Shown here piece after piece: positions 8,294 to 36,015 of a DNA stretch of 36,015 nucleotides. The DNA is taken from the NCBI GenBank assembly GCA_029782475.1, contig JARPSM010000010.1:1-36015 (forward strand), in the 5' to 3' direction. Source of the stretch: Nitrososphaerota archaeon. GTDB lineage: Archaea; Thermoproteota; Nitrososphaeria; Nitrososphaerales; Nitrosopumilaceae. A model generated the notes under the pieces. That model did not search any database. It worked only from the letters and a program-made list of their open reading frames with translations, and was not told where the DNA came from. The position numbers were made by a program, and so were the translations under genes. Position 1 is the first letter of the stretch. The number at the start of each line of letters is the position of its first letter.

Positions 8294-8881
8294 TTGAGCG
8301 CACAAGAATATAGACACATTGTCAGGATTGTAGGAAACGATATCCGTGGAGAGAGAAAAATGGTTATCGGATTAACTCAGATAAAGGGTCTTGGCTACAT
8401 GTTTGCAACGGCTATTCTTGATATTCTAAAAATTAATGCTAATTCCAATATCGGCAATCTTACAGATGAGAATGTTCAAGCAATTGAAAAAGTAATCACA
8501 GATCCAATTGCAAGTAACATTCCAACATGGTTCCTTAACAGAAGAAAAGATATTGAAACTGGTGCAGATTTACATTTGTTAACATCAGATATTCCATTTA
8601 CATTAAGAAATGATATTGAAAGAGAAAGAATCACTGCAAGTTGGAGAGGTTATCGCCATCTAAGTGGTCTTAAAGTTAGAGGACAAAGAACCAGAACTTC
8701 AGGTAGAAAAGGTGGAGCAGTCGGTGTCGCTAAAGGTGGATTGGCAGCTCCAGTTAAGAAAGGTGGTGCAGGAGCTCCGGCAGCAGCAGCAACAGAAGGT
8801 ACAGGAGCTCCGGCAGCAGCAGCAACAGAAGGTACAGGAGCTCCGGCAGCAGCAGCAGCAACAGCGGAGAAAAAAGAATAG
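8294..8881 (+). CDS. rps13: 30S ribosomal protein uS13
   Basis: Archaeal S13p/S18e, which sits in the head of the small subunit at the bridge with the large subunit. It starts at TTG and reads [20 protein letters not shown], a standard archaeal uS13 N-terminus. The helix-two-turn-helix part ([15 protein letters not shown]) and the basic tRNA-contacting C-terminus ([20 protein letters not shown]) are intact by about residue 145. It then carries an unusual tail of about 45 residues rich in Ala/Pro/Gly/Thr/Glu, built from a 33-bp tandem repeat, ending EKKE. uS4 follows after 9 nt, matching the archaeal S13-S4 order, although uS11 does not follow here. Confidence 0.97.
8771..8871 (+). repeat. 33-bp tandem repeat coding the uS13 tail
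   Basis: Two perfect 33-bp units (8771-8803, 8804-8836) and a third, partial and diverged copy from 8837. The unit begins GGAGCTCCGGCAGCAGCAGC and codes [11 protein letters not shown]. The third copy has one extra GCA codon, consistent with slippage. The repeat is more GC-rich than its surroundings. Confidence 0.9.
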
Positions 8882-28223: not shown

Positions 28224-29081
28224 TTGCATTCAAAACTAGTTACAGTTGATGTCAAACCATTTCTCAAATGGCCTGGTGGAAAACGTCAGTTATTATCCCA
28301 ATTAGAGCCAATAATACCATTAGAATTTGACAGATATTTTGAACCGTTTTTGGGGGGAGGCGCCATACTGTTTCATTTACTGTCCAGAAAATCACAACTT
28401 ACTGCAACAGTTTCAGATGTAAATCCTGAATTGATAAATTGTTATAAAATAATTAAATATAATTTAAAAGAATTAATTAAAGAATTAAAAATTCATCAAA
28501 AAAAATACATGAAAAATAGAGAACAATACTATTACAAAATTCGGGATGAATTTGAAAGTAAAGATAAAATTGAAAATGCAGCAAAATTTATTTTTCTCAA
28601 TAAAACGTGTTTTAATGGATTATACCGTGTTAATAAAAGTGGGAAATTCAATGTGCCACGGGGTCGTTATTTATCTCCTAATATTGTAAATGAAGAAAAT
28701 TTAGAAATAATTTCAAAATTATTAAATCGAAACAAAATAACTTTCAAAAGTTCAGATTTTTTCAAATCGTTGGAATCTGTAAAAAATGGAAATTTTGTAT
28801 TTCTGGACCCACCATATTTTCCTAGTTGCAAATCAGTTCACAGTACTCATTATTGGTCAGAGCCATTTGTTTATTCAGAACATGAGCGTCTAAAAGAAGA
28901 AATTGACCGTTTAGATTCCAAAGGAGTCAAAATAATACTCACAAATTCAGATACTCCTGAAACACGAAGGATTTTCAAAGATTACATGAATAATTCAATA
29001 AAAGTGAATGGCGTGCGTGTCATAAGTTCATCAGCTAATACCAGGTCTGACCATAAACAATTGATAATAAAAAATTTCTAA
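28224..29081 (+). CDS. D12-class (Dam-type) DNA adenine-N6 methyltransferase
   Basis: A 285-residue alpha-class m6A methyltransferase. Motif X/entry PFLKWPGGKRQLL (12-24), motif I FEPFLGGGAILF (39-50), FLNKTCFNGLYRVNKSGKFN in the middle, and motif IV DPPY at 195-198 are all intact. This order (SAM motif first, DPPY later) is that of Dam, DpnM and related enzymes, so the target may be GATC or a sequence containing it. It starts with TTG after ATAAAATT about 20 nt upstream. It lies 66 nt before the BglII-like endonuclease in the same direction and is part of the restriction island. Specificity is inferred. Confidence 0.9.
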   Translation: MHSKLVTVDVKPFLKWPGGKRQLLSQLEPIIPLEFDRYFEPFLGGGAILFHLLSRKSQLTATVSDVNPELINCYKIIKYNLKELIKELKIHQKKYMKNREQYYYKIRDEFESKDKIENAAKFIFLNKTCFNGLYRVNKSGKFNVPRGRYLSPNIVNEENLEIISKLLNRNKITFKSSDFFKSLESVKNGNFVFLDPPYFPSCKSVHSTHYWSEPFVYSEHERLKEEIDRLDSKGVKIILTNSDTPETRRIFKDYMNNSIKVNGVRVISSSANTRSDHKQLIIKNF

Positions 29082-29147
29082 GTTCATTATTTTTTATCAA
29101 ATTACTTTGACTCTCTAAATTACATAAAAAAATCAGAGTATTTATTA

Positions 29148-29809
29148 TTGGAATTAAAAATTTCAGATTATAATGATGCTGAGGGTATAATTAAAAATGA
29201 ATTCAGCGAAGAGTGGAAGGAATTTGAAAAAATATTACAAGAGATGCCTTTACATTTACAAGGATCAGACCAAAAAGGAAAAAAAGGCAGTGTAATTTTT
29301 GGTGTAAAAGAAACCAATAGATATCTAAAAGAACATCTAGTTAATGAGAATTGGGAAGTGATGTCTCAATTCCTGCAGAATACAATTCTTTTGGGATTGG
29401 TGTAGATTTTGGTAAAAAAAATATAATTGTAGAAGTGCAATTTTCAAACTATCCATTTGTAATTAATAATATTATCAGATCAGAAGTATTTTGTAAATCA
29501 GAATTAGAATTGATACCAGAATACCCTGTTAAACTATTGATTATAATTACGAAAGCCCATAAATTTCCTGCTTCAAATAGTACATCATACTATGAACAAG
29601 CTAAAGGTCAAATTGATTTTATGTTAGAACATGAAATTATTTCGATGTCCATACGATTGATTGGTTTAACTGTCAGTGATGGTGAGAATGTGGATGCAAT
29701 GTGGACAAACTATTCAGCAGAAAGATATTCTAGGAATGGAACAAACAGTTCGCAGACATTTAAAATAAAAACAATTAATGATGGAATTGCAAAAATTATA
29801 AAAAATTAA
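29148..29809 (+). pseudogene. BglII-family restriction endonuclease, interrupted by one frameshift
   Basis: Homolog of BglII (cuts A/GATCT). From TTG 29148 it reads MELKISDYNDAEGIIKNEFS, collinear with the BglII N-terminus as I recall it, to Trp69. The frame then shifts at the GGG of 29353-29355; the first frame stops at 29405 and the rest continues in the next frame to TAA 29809. Adding one G gives ENWGSDVSIPAEYN and a 220-residue protein, against 223 for BglII. The active site is conserved with exact spacing: D87 x8 E96 x Q98 (VDFGKKNIIVEVQ), matching D84, E93 and Q95. DNA-contact segments FSNYPF and FPASNSTSYYEQA are kept. BglII Asn69 corresponds to Asp72. As written the enzyme is dead unless the shift is a sequencing error or is bypassed. 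Confidence 0.85.
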
Positions 29810-30786
29810 TTTCCATTCATCTTCAATTTACTATTAAACAAAACAGAAATTGCATGCCAGAGTTCTTCTTTATCAAATAGTGTTTTTCCTAAATCAGTAG
29901 TTGCAACAGTTGATGGGACCTTGCTTGTTTGAGCATCAAATGAAAAATCTGCAGAGTTAGATTTAGGATGTTTTGCAAAGTATTGACGAAGTTGCTTTAG
30001 ATTAACAAATTTACCATTTTGTGGTTTGCCAGATAACCTTCGTTTGATTAGAATGTGATATTCAGAATCAATTTCTGCACCTAAATAATGACGTTTTAGG
30101 TCTTTAGCAACAACAGCGGTCGTTCCTGAGCCCATATAGGGATCTAAAACTACATCATTTTTCTTGGTTGTAGACAAAATAATTCGTTTGATTAAAGATT
30201 CAGGGAATTGAGCTGGATGAATGCATTGTTCCTCATGATTATGCTTTACATTTTCAAAAAGCCATACATCCCCAGGATTTTTTCCTAAAGGATTACCAGA
30301 TAATTTTCCTTTGTTTGGGCCTGCCCATTCTTTTTTGTTTGGATATAATTGAGGAATACGGACATTATCCAAGTAAAATCTGTATTTGTCTGGACTTTTT
30401 GTAAACCACAATATTGCTTCATGTCTATCAGTAAATCGTTTTGAAGCTTGTAATCCATGTGCACGCGGCCAAATAATTCTATTTTTTGGAAACATACCTA
30501 ATTTTTGAAAAATAGGAAACATGAGTATGTCAAGTGGATAGTGTCCAGTTTCATCAGTGTATGAACCAACTTCCCAGAAAATTGAGCCACTTGGTTTTAA
30601 CAATCTAGAACATTGTTCCAATACTTTAGTTTGGTAAGCAATGTACAAATCTAATGATTTTCTTTTTTCTTTACCACGTCCAATATTGTATGGTGGAGAA
30701 CTTACTACAAGATCTACTTTAGTATTAATAGATTCTAGAAATTTTAATGTGTCACCCTTGTGGATATAATCTAATTTATCTACCAT
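29806..30786 (-). CDS. beta-class SPPY DNA methyltransferase, probably N4-cytosine (BglII partner)
   Basis: A 326-residue beta-class methyltransferase: catalytic motif IV SPPY at 30-33 near the N-terminus and SAM motif I DPYMGSGTT at 215-223 near the C-terminus. SPPY is the usual motif of m4C enzymes, and M.BglII is an m4C methyltransferase, so this is the natural protector of AGATCT. Motifs look intact. The C-terminal about 70 residues (SADFSFDAQTSKVPSTVATT onward) look like an added domain. It is convergent with the endonuclease, the stop codons sharing TTAA, and follows the nucleotidyltransferase gene by 64 nt on the same strand. Confidence 0.88.
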   Translation of the reverse strand: MVDKLDYIHKGDTLKFLESINTKVDLVVSSPPYNIGRGKEKRKSLDLYIAYQTKVLEQCSRLLKPSGSIFWEVGSYTDETGHYPLDILMFPIFQKLGMFPKNRIIWPRAHGLQASKRFTDRHEAILWFTKSPDKYRFYLDNVRIPQLYPNKKEWAGPNKGKLSGNPLGKNPGDVWLFENVKHNHEEQCIHPAQFPESLIKRIILSTTKKNDVVLDPYMGSGTTAVVAKDLKRHYLGAEIDSEYHILIKRRLSGKPQNGKFVNLKQLRQYFAKHPKSNSADFSFDAQTSKVPSTVATTDLGKTLFDKEELWHAISVLFNSKLKMNGN

Positions 30787-30850
30787 AATGCTAATTCCTT
30801 GAAGAAGATATTACAGAATAAAATGTTTGGGGTATAATATAATTTAGAAA

Positions 30851-31963
30851 TCATGTTGTCTCAATTTGATGAATTAGATATAGACTTGGTAATGGAACAA
30901 CTTTGAATGCTTTGGTATTTAGATGTGTATGTTTTGAAAAAGAATTAATTAATTCTAGACGCTTTGTTCGTTGCTCAATTACATTAAAATCTTGAAATTG
31001 TTTTAAAGATGTTAGATGATTAGCAAATTTATCAATACAGTCAGATTTAGAATAAATTCCATTTATCGTATCCAAAACATTTTTACAAAATAATCTAACT
31101 TTGAAAATATCTTCAATATACTGAGTAACATTATATCCACCAGTATCAAGATATTGACCTTTAAAATCACCATGTTTATTTTTTGAAGTAGATTCTAAAC
31201 TATTGATATTTTGAGGATTAACTAGCGATTCTGTATGTTTCGATATAGATTCAACCACTTCTTTAAATGAAAAACTTTCAGCATGTTTTGAGGATTTGTA
31301 TGTAGAAAAGCTTTCAAATTTTTCATATGGTCTATTAAGGGAATTTTCGATCCAACTATCAAAAAGGCGACCTAAGTCATAGATTTGTTTTGGAGTTCTT
31401 TCAGGAATTTTAATTGTATAGCCAATTGTTCCTATTGCAATCGTGTTTAATTTATCAGCAATTAAAGATCCTACATCAAAAATCTCAATATCTTCTTTAG
31501 TTTTAAAACCTAAAATGTCAATTCCTTTACCAAAAGTTTTTGATTCTAGTTCAGGAATGTTCTCACAAAAAATGTCTAAATTTACATGACCAACTGGACT
31601 GAAATTAGTCTTATGAGTTATATCAAATCTCATCATTGGAAGATTTCCTTCGAAATTTTTATTTTCTACAAATATTATATCATCAGAAGTTAGATTAATT
31701 TGTGAAATCTTCTTTCTTACATCATCAAATGACAAATTTACAAGTATGTCAATATCAACACTTAATCGTCTAATGTTTTGATCCAAATGAAATGGCATAC
31801 TCATTCCTCCTCTAACTTTACAATCCATTAGTTTATTGACATGATGTAAAATTTCAAAATCCATAATGAACTTTTCAATAAATCCTTTATTAGGAAAATG
31901 TTCTTGTTGACTAATCTTTATGATATTATCTTTGTCTAGTTCTTGTTCATATAATAGAGTCAA
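30851..31963 (-). CDS. AbiEii-like nucleotidyltransferase
   Basis: A 370-residue protein with the DUF1814/AbiEii nucleotidyltransferase pattern: VRGGMSM (Gly52-Gly53), RRLSVDIDIL with Ser68, Asp70 and Asp72, a third acid in VNLDIF (Asp130), then DVGSLIADKLNTIA (Lys171) and RTPKQIYDLGRL (Lys192, Asp196). Relatives are toxins of the AbiE and MenT families that modify tRNA or other RNA. The normal partner, an AbiEi winged-helix antitoxin, is absent. Instead the gene starts inside the last codons of the MORC-like ATPase gene (4-nt ATGA overlap), so the two proteins are made together. C-terminal 170 residues are helical and unassigned. Confidence 0.8.
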   Translation of the reverse strand: MTLLYEQELDKDNIIKISQQEHFPNKGFIEKFIMDFEILHHVNKLMDCKVRGGMSMPFHLDQNIRRLSVDIDILVNLSFDDVRKKISQINLTSDDIIFVENKNFEGNLPMMRFDITHKTNFSPVGHVNLDIFCENIPELESKTFGKGIDILGFKTKEDIEIFDVGSLIADKLNTIAIGTIGYTIKIPERTPKQIYDLGRLFDSWIENSLNRPYEKFESFSTYKSSKHAESFSFKEVVESISKHTESLVNPQNINSLESTSKNKHGDFKGQYLDTGGYNVTQYIEDIFKVRLFCKNVLDTINGIYSKSDCIDKFANHLTSLKQFQDFNVIEQRTKRLELINSFSKHTHLNTKAFKVVPLPSLYLIHQIETT

Positions 31964-33894
31964 AATTCACTTTCTCCAAAAACTTGATCTAATAATTTGG
32001 AAACATCATTAAAATTATTGCGATGTTTAGATAATGAAACTAATTTGCTTTTCTTTACTAGATTGTAATTTTTGAGTAAATCAAGAACAGTGACTAATTC
32101 TTCATCAGTGATAGGAATATGATTAGAGATTATTTCTCTATAAAAATCCATCCAAGCTTTTTCAGGTTCAGCAAGAGGTTTTGATAATTCATCAGATTTG
32201 TATTCTCTAATAATTAAAAATGGTTTATCAGTAGAAATTTTGTATGCATTTTCAATTTCTTCCCGTGTTGGATCAAATAATAAAGCAAATTTTCTAGAGT
32301 TTGAAAAAGTTTGAGAGATAAAATCTAATACTATTTCACCCACACCTTTTTGAACATAGATAGTATAGAGCATTGTTTTTAATCCATATTCTAGATAAGT
32401 GTTAAGTGTACTAAGTGCTGTGAATTGAAATCTATATTCAAATTTTTCATGAAGATAATCATAGAGTTCAGTAAGTTCATCAGATAATCCATAAAATGCA
32501 TTAGATTCAGCATCACGACGTTCACGCATTTGTTTTGGTTTTTTCTGTTCTTTAGATAAAAAATCGTTTATAAATTTATTCCATTCAATATTTCTTTTTC
32601 TTAAAAATTCATCTAGAGTTAATTTTTCAGTAAGTAATTTTGATTCGATTTGAATTAATGCAATCAAAAATAAAGGATTTTTTGAAATTTTGAATGTAGG
32701 GCTATTTTTATTTATAGAAATATTAATTTCATTATTAGATTTATCAATATCATATAGATTTTTTTTGTCAGATTCAACAAAATCAAGAAATACATTTTTA
32801 GAATTTTTAGTAAATTCAAATTCAGGTACGTTGTCTAAAATTTTTTTTGAAACTGCAGAACTTAGTTGAACTTTAAGAGGCAAAATTTTCTTTGGTTTAT
32901 GACCTTTCAAATACGAATAAACATCATCTACAGAAGAAGCATTTTTTGATGAATAAGACTGCTCACTAAGAATATCAGAGATTGTTTTGTTATTACGTAG
33001 TTTTTCATCAGTTTCTTTGTATAGTTCATTATCAGTAAGGAATTTTGTTTTATAGAAATTCACAGATATTGGATCAAAATTCAAATCACCAACAACTTTA
33101 GAAACTTCAGGATGACTTCTTAATCCAATTTTTGAATGTGTTTCAATAAGTCTGTTATTTTTAAATAGATTAAACCCATATTCGCCTTTTGAAGACCGTT
33201 TTGTTGCTAAACCAATCCAACCTGTAATTTGAGAATCATTGGATAAATTAATTTTAATATTTTTTTTCTTTTCTTCTAGCTCTATAGGTTTAGATTTACA
33301 TAGAAATTGATTGATTTTGATTTCAATAGGGTAATCATTAAGATAACTAGCATATCTTGTTCCATAATGTTTTTTATAATTTGTTGCTTGGTTTGGATAA
33401 AGTCTAACATTGATTTTTTTAATTTCAATTTTTGTTCCAAACCAATTATCAGTATTTTTTTCTTCAGTAACTTGAAAATTATGCCAATCTAAAGTATCAT
33501 CGTTTAACCATTCATCTTCATCATATTCAACAACATATTTTTTTAAAGAACCTTTTTTTGCTGTTGTTATTCTAAAGTTTTTTCCTAACATAGAACAAGC
33601 ACTTTTCATACCCATACCAAATTGACCTAATTTTTTTTTAGATCTTTTAGTTGCTCTTGCAATTGTTAATGCATTTTCAAGTTCATCTAAATCCATACCA
33701 CGACCATCATCATCTACAGTAATTTTCTTATCAACAAAATCAATAGTCACATTTACTAACAAAGGTTGAGAACCATTTCTTGCATCTATAGAATTATCAA
33801 TTAATTCAGCAATGGCAGCTTCAGTTCTATATCCTATCATTCCTAGTTTTTTAAGGAGTGTTTTATCAGGCGTGATATTTAAATCTCTAACCAT
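31960..33894 (-). CDS. MORC/MutL-like GHKL ATPase
   Basis: A 644-residue protein with a complete Bergerat ATP-binding fold at the N-terminus: N box AELIDNSIDA (Glu30, Asn34), G1 box DDDGRGMD (61-68), G2 box GQFGMGMKSA (90-99). A transducer-like S5 domain follows to about 320 (FKNNRLIETH, then VSKVVGDLNFDPISVNFYKT). The remaining about 320 residues are helical/mixed and not recognised. This is the prokaryotic MORC-like group known to accompany restriction-modification genes. The start at ATG 33894 is chosen because a TATA box at 33924-33931 puts the transcript start near 33900; an in-frame ATG at 33915 would lie upstream of it. First gene of the leftward run ATPase-nucleotidyltransferase-methyltransferase. 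Confidence 0.85.
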   Translation of the reverse strand: MVRDLNITPDKTLLKKLGMIGYRTEAAIAELIDNSIDARNGSQPLLVNVTIDFVDKKITVDDDGRGMDLDELENALTIARATKRSKKKLGQFGMGMKSACSMLGKNFRITTAKKGSLKKYVVEYDEDEWLNDDTLDWHNFQVTEEKNTDNWFGTKIEIKKINVRLYPNQATNYKKHYGTRYASYLNDYPIEIKINQFLCKSKPIELEEKKKNIKINLSNDSQITGWIGLATKRSSKGEYGFNLFKNNRLIETHSKIGLRSHPEVSKVVGDLNFDPISVNFYKTKFLTDNELYKETDEKLRNNKTISDILSEQSYSSKNASSVDDVYSYLKGHKPKKILPLKVQLSSAVSKKILDNVPEFEFTKNSKNVFLDFVESDKKNLYDIDKSNNEINISINKNSPTFKISKNPLFLIALIQIESKLLTEKLTLDEFLRKRNIEWNKFINDFLSKEQKKPKQMRERRDAESNAFYGLSDELTELYDYLHEKFEYRFQFTALSTLNTYLEYGLKTMLYTIYVQKGVGEIVLDFISQTFSNSRKFALLFDPTREEIENAYKISTDKPFLIIREYKSDELSKPLAEPEKAWMDFYREIISNHIPITDEELVTVLDLLKNYNLVKKSKLVSLSKHRNNFNDVSKLLDQVFGESEF

Positions 33895-33923
33895 TTTGCT
33901 CTCTCTTAAATACACACATCATT

Positions 33924-34353: not shown

Positions 34354-34472
34354 ATAAAACTAACCTAGATGAATTAGAACATGATGAAGTTAAACGTAGA
34401 CTAGACCTAATCGTTGAAGAAAATTATGAAAGGCTAGGTAAAAGGAAAAAGATAGACAAGAGTATAGTTTAG
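34341..34472 (+). pseudogene. C-terminal remnant of an unidentified protein
   Basis: An open frame without start codon after a TAG at 34338, ending TAG 34470-34472. It codes LDELEHDEVKRRLDLIVEEN followed by YERLGKRKKIDKSIV, a helical, charged, protein-like stretch. It looks like the 3' end of a gene whose front part is lost. No family recognised. Confidence 0.25.
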
Positions 34473-34546
34473 GCATATAAATTTTGAACGAATTATCAAC
34501 TATTTCAACCCAAAAGATCGAGATCATAGTTTACACTTACAGAATC

Positions 34547-34729
34547 ATGTCAAAACAAACTACTAGAGCATCAATGGTATCTTCAGGAAGCCATTTCATG
34601 AAAGGAACAAGCATCAATTTTTTAAGAAAAGTATGCAAGAATGAAAAAAATGCAAAGGCAAAGATAAGACTAAAGGCTGCAATTCTAAGAAAACAAAATA
34701 TTCCGTATTCTGTAATATGTGCTAGTTTA
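34547..34729 (+). pseudogene. 5' part of a small helix-turn-helix ORF split by the IS630 element
   Basis: From ATG 34547 (or TTG 34484) it codes SINFLRKVCKNEKNAKAKIR, LKAAILRKQNIPYSVICASL, which resembles the first helical region of the adjacent IS630 transposase (LKKAYKKEKDLQVRARILAV). At 34728 the IS begins. Joining TTA (34727-34729) to 35927 continues in frame as RTNIIEFFLKLKRFRL and stops at 35975-35977, giving a 77-residue protein with the end of a helix-turn-helix. So the IS sits inside a small IS630-like HTH gene, itself perhaps an old transposase fragment. Confidence 0.6.
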
Positions 34730-34856
34730 TACTGTCGAGAAAAAGTTCATGAGAGATCAAATTAATCAATTATACTGTCGAGAAAAAGTTCATGAGAGAT
34801 CAAATTAATCAATTATACTGTCGAGAAAAAGTTCATGAGAGATCAAATTAATCAAT
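34728..34856 (+). repeat. three perfect 43-bp tandem copies of the IS left terminal repeat
   Basis: Copies at 34728-34770, 34771-34813 and 34814-34856 are identical, each starting TATACTGTCGAGAAAAAGTT. Each holds the whole left terminal inverted repeat plus about 15 bp of inner sequence ending AATTAATCAAT. Arrays of this kind may come from slippage or from repeated abortive transposition at the element's end. Confidence 0.95.
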
Positions 34857-34893
34857 TAGCAATAGATATTGATCATGATAACGTAGTTTTTGT

Positions 34894-35915
34894 ATGACAA
34901 CAGTAACTTCCAAAGATCTAAAGAAAGCATACAAGAAGGAAAAGGATCTCCAAGTACGTGCCAGAATACTTGCCGTAAACATGATTTGTATGAACAATGC
35001 AAGCATTAAGTATACTGCCGATACACTCTTGCAGTGCCCCAACTGGGTCACCATATGGGTGCAACGATTCAAAGAGGGCGGCATAGACGCCCTCGTGGAT
35101 CTTCCCAGGTCAGGCAGACCGCCAAAGATAGACCTCGAAAAGATTGCAAAGATTGTATCGGATGCAGACGGCATCATCACTCCGAAGAAACTCAAGTGTA
35201 TAATACAAAAAAAATTCAGAGTAAACTACCACATTACAAACATCAGAAGGATATTGCACAAGCTTGACATGTCTGCCAAGACTGTCAAACGCATCCACAT
35301 CAATAGGGCAGAGATAAAACAGATCAAAAGATGGCAACACAACGCAAAAAGGCGGATTTCACGCCTAGAATCTAATGAATTTGCAGTTGTCGTCTTTGAT
35401 GAGGCAATATTCATAGATGATCCTGCAAGCGGAGTAAAGTACCAGTCAAAAAAGGGAGAGCCAATTGTTCGTCCATACAAGGGACGGCACGGCAAGGTGG
35501 TGGTGGTGGTGGTGGCATACGGCTCCATTGCAACAGACGACAGACAGTTCTTTAGGACGTATGACAGGTTTGACAAGGAGACGGTTCTGCAATACATCAA
35601 GGAGCTAGTCCGGCATTTCAAGAAAGTTGCAATAATTATGGATAACGCGCCGCAACACAAGGCATGCATTCTCCAAGAATTTCTGGATGGAAATCCAAAT
35701 GTAAAGGTCATATGGATGCCCACTGCAACACCTGAGGTCAGTGTGACAGAGGAGGAGTATTGGCACCAAGCAAAGCGCGATGTCCTAGTGTCTGAATACA
35801 TGCCACAGTTGGGGAGATGCGCCATGTACCACCATAATATTTCAGGACGGCGCGTCCGGATCTTAACGTGATGACGTTTATCAGTAGAAGCCCGCTTACA
35901 CTCAAGAACTTTTGA
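34894..35915 (+). pseudogene. IS630-family transposase, frameshifted near the C-terminus
   Basis: Starts at ATG 34894 (MTTVTSKDLKKAYKKEKDLQ). N-terminal HTH region to about 130 (including LPRSGRPPKID), then the DDE core: first Asp in VVVFDEAIF (about 170), second in IIMDNAPQH (about 249), third acid in PEVSVTEEEYWHQAKRD (about 290). In the original frame it ends at 35871 with the odd tail LGRCAMYHHNISGRRVRILT. One base earlier in the run GGGG (35811-35814) the other frame continues GEMRHVPP, a TAA at 35835-35837, then YFRTARPDLNVMTFISRSPL and TLKNF to 35915 inside the right terminal repeat. That second tail is the family-like one. So it carries a 1-base shift and a stop, and is probably inactive. 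Confidence 0.85.
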
Positions 35916-35927
35916 TCGACAGTATAA
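35901..35927 (-). repeat. right terminal inverted repeat of the IS630 element
   Basis: Reverse strand TTATACTGTCGATCAAAAGT then TCTTGAG. It matches the left copies except at two bases after TCGA and one base before TGAG. The family-like C-terminus of the transposase ends inside it. Confidence 0.85.
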
Positions 35928-36015
35928 GAACCAATATTATAGAATTTTTTTTGAAATTAAAAAGATTTCGATTATAATAATTAACTTTGGTTGTTAGATG
36001 AAAACATACCCTAGA
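35928..36015. other. host sequence after the IS, 3' end of the split HTH ORF
   Basis: 35927-35977 continues the frame of the disrupted HTH gene (RTNIIEFFLKLKRFRL, stop TAA 35975-35977). The remainder to the window edge is AT-rich without a supported feature. Confidence 0.5.

Follow-up and report, generated by a model that had tools for sequence, protein, structure and literature searches.

A tripled left terminus in one copy of an IS630-type insertion sequence from a Nitrosopumilaceae archaeon

The ends of a few transposable elements have been studied closely enough to serve as a reference for the locus described here. ISY100, a member of the IS630/Tc1-mariner group from Synechocystis, is well studied. 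This element was shown to be cut precisely at its ends and to insert at TA; its 24-bp terminal repeats are probably sufficient, and about 24-30 bp are enough for cleavage (PMC2170065). In plants, some Mutator-like elements (MULEs) have tandem terminal repeats, whose origins have been discussed in terms of slippage, recombination and nested insertion (PMC3310237). The part of a survey of thaumarchaeal insertion sequences (IS) that is drawn on here places the IS630 family in a single thaumarchaeal species (PMC6563490). A limited search of open-access text found no prokaryotic example of tandem transposon ends.

The window (the whole stretch of 36,015 nt that was analysed) is contig C59 of a Nitrososphaerota genome of 1.92 Mb, which is assembled in 157 contigs and is 98.5% complete. 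At 34728-34856, the sequence reads as three perfect tandem units of 43 bp with zero differences between them. TRF reported a single array at this place (34727-34858, period 43, 3.1 copies, 100% matches, no indels), and this array is the highest-scoring tandem repeat of the window. The outermost unit (34728-34770, forward strand) includes the putative TA target copy at 34728-34729 and the terminal repeat at 34728-34753. It is followed by a perfect copy (34771-34813, forward strand) across the junction CAAT-TA-TACTG. The third unit (34814-34856, forward strand) runs on into the body of the element and matches the single left end of other copies. Every unit opens with the left terminal repeat, which is 26 bp long and reads TATACTGTCGAGAAAAAGTTCATGAG, so that a complete-looking terminal repeat with TA before it is found three times. 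The locus therefore has, as plant MULEs do, at least two complete terminal repeats in tandem at one end, namely three at the left. The initial annotation had described three perfect 43-bp copies of the left end at these positions, each with the full terminal inverted repeat, and both statements are confirmed. A chance repeat is ruled out by the TRF result and by the excess of TATACTGTCGA, which with at most one mismatch occurs six times in the window versus 0.23 times expected from shuffles. Structured DNA was also considered and rejected: a single 43-bp unit is no more stably folded than shuffles (z 0.29), and 187 of 200 shuffles of the whole array were at least as stable as the array itself.

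The element that carries the array, called IS-A here, proper spans 34730-35924 (1195 bp, or 1109 bp minus the two extra units) and is flanked by TA at 34728-34729 and 35925-35926. Its open reading frame (34894-35871, forward strand) is open over 325 aa and encodes an IS630-family transposase with HTH_32, HTH_29 and DDE_3 domains. The product scored 130.8 bits against the NCBIfam IS630 transposase model NF033545 (cut-off 100), PF13358 (DDE_3) and PF13565 (HTH_32) were likewise above cut-off, and the D, D and E motifs could be read by eye (FDEAIF, MDNAPQH and EEEYW). The right terminal inverted repeat (35901-35926, reverse strand, ending in the TA at 35925-35926) is present in a single copy and is identical to the left end at 23 of 26 positions (88%). 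IS-A thus combines a transposase with terminal inverted repeats at both ends, as expected of IS630/Tc1-mariner elements, and its earlier identification as an IS630 element is borne out by the profile score and the terminal repeats. The nearest transposases within the genus are 34-56% identical, and a search for close relatives in named genomes gave one Nitrosopumilaceae match only, at 41% identity.

Pieces of IS-A are found at about 20 other places in the genome, many of them in copies broken by stops, frameshifts or contig ends. All eight of the other readable left ends (C51, C21, C63, C16, C75, C87, C142 and C131) are single and lead directly into CAATTAGTAATAG or CAATTAGCAATAG, apart from slight variation between copies. 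The triplet is therefore unique among the nine readable left ends of the genome. The tandem junction CAATTATACTGTCGA is confined to the window array among the IS-A loci compared, all IS-A right ends examined are single, and neither an intermediate with two units nor a nested full-length copy was found. Beyond this genome, a gapped pattern search of 94 further congeneric genomes detected no two ends close together, the array sequence matched none of the other genomes in a set of 100, and the left end had no match in viral contigs. Across about 36 further IS630 loci from the order, TRF detected no array in a comparable position at a transposase-proximal end, a coarse comparison in which the loci were not delimited end by end. 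The tandem-ended form is thus a single occurrence in the genome and in the genus, and is not found at several sites. It had been proposed that other copies of this IS be checked for one versus several left repeats; with eight of eight single and no tandem in the 94 congeneric genomes, the triplet is ruled out as the normal end of the IS and is non-standard. TA flanks both ends of the window copy and of most other copies; C16 reads GCTACTG and not TATACTG.

Two further observations concern the sister copies. Several of them (C21, C75, C87 and C142) are short of one A (GCCAGATACTTG versus GCCAGAATACTTG); the A is present in the window copy, in C51 and in the divergent C131. A frameshifted form of IS-A may have been multiplied in trans. 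Other rearranged ends of IS-A are also found in the genome, namely isolated short ends at C65, C134 and C68 and, at C97:7853-8090, two left ends that lie inverted with TA on both sides and another short repeat between them. The C97 locus was considered as a MITE made from two left ends, a reading that was rejected because its inner ~140 bp is another repeat, also present at ten or so other places. The locus is more plausibly a palindromic left-end remnant into which the ~140-bp repeat has come. The ten or so copies of this repeat (C97, C4, C74, C152, C122, C27, C105, C69, C10 and C68) show 91-98% identity to the C97 copy and have ends that are alike in inverted orientation, features of a probable MITE of another kind.

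The initial annotation had taken the perfect identity of the units as a sign of recent amplification. The identity stands, while the case for recency is weak. The left 43 bp are nearly invariant across all copies of IS-A, and three identical units therefore say little about time. The window copy has 17 private positions in 1111 (1.5%), and at this rate about 2 differences would be expected in 129 bp, with a probability of about 0.14 that there would be none. The same copy is 3.8% different from the consensus of the copies, which would give a probability of 0.007; this value was set aside and is not relied on, because most of the 3.8% is common to other copies and so predates the insertion in the window. 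Over pairs with at least 200 shared positions, pairwise identity among the copies peaks at 97.8%, and the window copy reaches 96.2% with its nearest partner. Judged from these distances, the IS family looks old, with no recent burst. With the best match of the window copy at 96.2% and no compared pair above 97.8%, there is no sign that the triple-ended form ever moved.

The triplet is true as assembled, and the interpretation first given to it is overstated. It is likely to be a real and one-off local duplication without demonstrated function that arose either by an event linked to the terminus or by slippage. The left 43 bp of a degenerate copy of a genome-specific IS630/Tc1-type IS would have been tandemly duplicated in place, once. 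It is tentatively proposed that the initiating event was tied to the IS terminus, a proposal that takes together self-insertion with recombination and a mis-repaired transposase break or nick. By the first route, an IS copy would insert at the TA that is found 43 bp inside the left end, giving an inserted state of 43 bp, TA and a complete element, and the two nearly identical bodies would then recombine to the observed structure. By the second route, the transposase would break or nick the DNA at the terminus and mis-repair would follow. The third unit would be gained by slippage between two units. The start of the array is exactly the IS terminus and the end of the unit is a TA inside the element (CAAT-TA-GC); CAAT-TA-TACTG is the junction expected from TA-specific insertion into CAAT-TA-GCAA. 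When all possible tandem-duplication breakpoints that offer 3 bp or more of microhomology around the single-copy left end are counted, 7 of 298 (2.3%) touch the terminus; this count, made post hoc and over breakpoints that are not equally likely, favours a terminus-linked event. The tentative standing of the proposal reflects the junction, the breakpoint count and the other rearranged ends in the genome, with the TTA microhomology weighed against them. The precise cutting of ISY100 and its insertion at TA, and the probable insertion of IS-A into another IS630-type element, are in line with the overall reading; the search that found no intermediate and the rearranged right flank count against it. 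The sequences show the array, its uniqueness among the copies compared, its boundaries at the terminus and TA, and the age of the IS family, and from these comparisons we infer how the events followed one another, by which mechanism, and that the triplet lacks an effect; it is probably neutral.

Could the array have formed by replication slippage alone? The template switch would use the two copies of TTA, one at the terminus and one at +43, after which two units would become three, and a transposase is not required. Short tandem duplications that rest on a few bp of microhomology are frequent, and the 3-bp TTA is indeed common to both breakpoints. Slippage by itself leaves unexplained the exact coincidence of the array start with the terminus, which only 7 of the 298 equivalent breakpoints touch (again post hoc). 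As the whole explanation, slippage is possible, and it is nearly as likely as a terminus-linked origin.

The surroundings of the array bear on how far the assembly can be trusted. IS-A sits in, and probably inserted into, a second IS630-type relic, IS-B, whose left part lies at 34463-34729 (forward strand) and which has other copies at C92 (uninterrupted) and C110. This left part has 95% identity to an uninterrupted stretch of contig C92, after which the C92 reading frame has an HTH_33 domain, found in transposases of the IS630 type. The uninterrupted site at C92 has a single TA (GTTAGTT-TA-GATGTC), and in the window IS-A begins after GCTAGTT-TA. The right flank of IS-A (35927-36015) consists of 89 bp up to the contig end and contains no continuation of IS-B: the sequence after the right end is TA-AGAACCAATATT where C92 has TA-GATGTC, and no other place in the genome was found to carry the continuation of IS-B. 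C92 was compared as an empty site, but the right flank does not fit it, and the comparison did not show a simple insertion of IS-A. The missing far side of IS-B implies a further rearrangement, of the locus or of the contig end, besides the formation of the array. The rest of IS-B would have been lost or exchanged when IS copies recombined, unless the last 89 bp of the contig were wrongly joined. IS copies at C21 and C63 are 92% identical and have the same left flank and different right flanks, which would come from IS recombination or false joins. Together with the missing continuation of IS-B, these flanks mean that the assembly around IS copies needs caution.

Elsewhere in the window, 28224-33915 looks like a defence region, with a D12 adenine methylase, a type II restriction enzyme (PADLOC model only), an N6/N4 methylase, an AbiEii-type nucleotidyltransferase and a GHKL ATPase that has a weak MzaB match and a Morc6_S5 domain. 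A 33-bp coding repeat (8765-8857, 2.8 copies, 98%) lies in the alanine-rich tail of a protein (8294-8881) that by eye reads like ribosomal protein S13.

An assembly artefact in copy number or joining, by which the true number of units may be either two, or more than three, is an unlikely source of the triplet. Pieces of the IS recur at about 20 places, the window contig stops 89 bp beyond this copy, many IS pieces lie at or near the ends of the 157 contigs, and the right flanks disagree both between the window and the uninterrupted IS-B of C92 and between C21 and C63, which have their left flank in common. Against an artefact, CAATTATACTGTCGA occurs, among the loci compared, only in the array, and the false joining of single-end copies should not yield head-to-tail junctions of such precision; the simplest source of the assembled sequence is a real read that contains two units or more.

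It had also been suggested that multiple left ends alter transposase binding and allow mobilisation from different boundaries. In this reading, three left ends raise transposase occupancy and the element leaves from any of three left boundaries. Each unit does have TA and then a full terminal repeat, about 24-30 bp are enough for ISY100 cleavage (PMC2170065), and MULEs of plants have multiplied with their terminal repeats in tandem; the MULE study nevertheless described those whose extra repeat is one-sided as unsuccessful (PMC3310237). With no other copy that has two or three units, no recent IS copies at all and a best match of 96.2%, a functional role of this sort is very improbable. It is equally hard to credit that the triplet is a transposase product of serial self-insertion at the left-end TA, its multi-site end raising capture as a prokaryotic counterpart of the tandem-repeat MULEs; if the transposase did multiply the end, elements would have a way to acquire additional binding sites.

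As a probable local duplication, the locus adds one prokaryotic example of a tandem transposon end, with single-end sister copies for comparison; little is at stake beyond this. ISY100 and IS-A have in common one transposase ORF (N-terminal HTH and DDE domain), terminal repeats of about 24 bp and, as a putative feature of IS-A, a TA target duplication. ISY100 has one repeat per end, whereas the window copy of IS-A has three at the left. Like the IS630 elements in the part of the thaumarchaeal survey considered, IS-A has its close relatives confined to one genome; unlike the window copy, the elements described in that part of the survey are presented without tandem ends (PMC6563490). The terminal repeat of IS-A is in tandem at one end, as in plant MULEs, where terminal repeats are tandem on one or both ends. 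Plant MULEs differ in belonging to another transposase superfamily, in their long terminal repeats and in that some of them have multiplied, whereas the tandem end of IS-A is built from a 43-bp unit and is carried by a single decayed copy.
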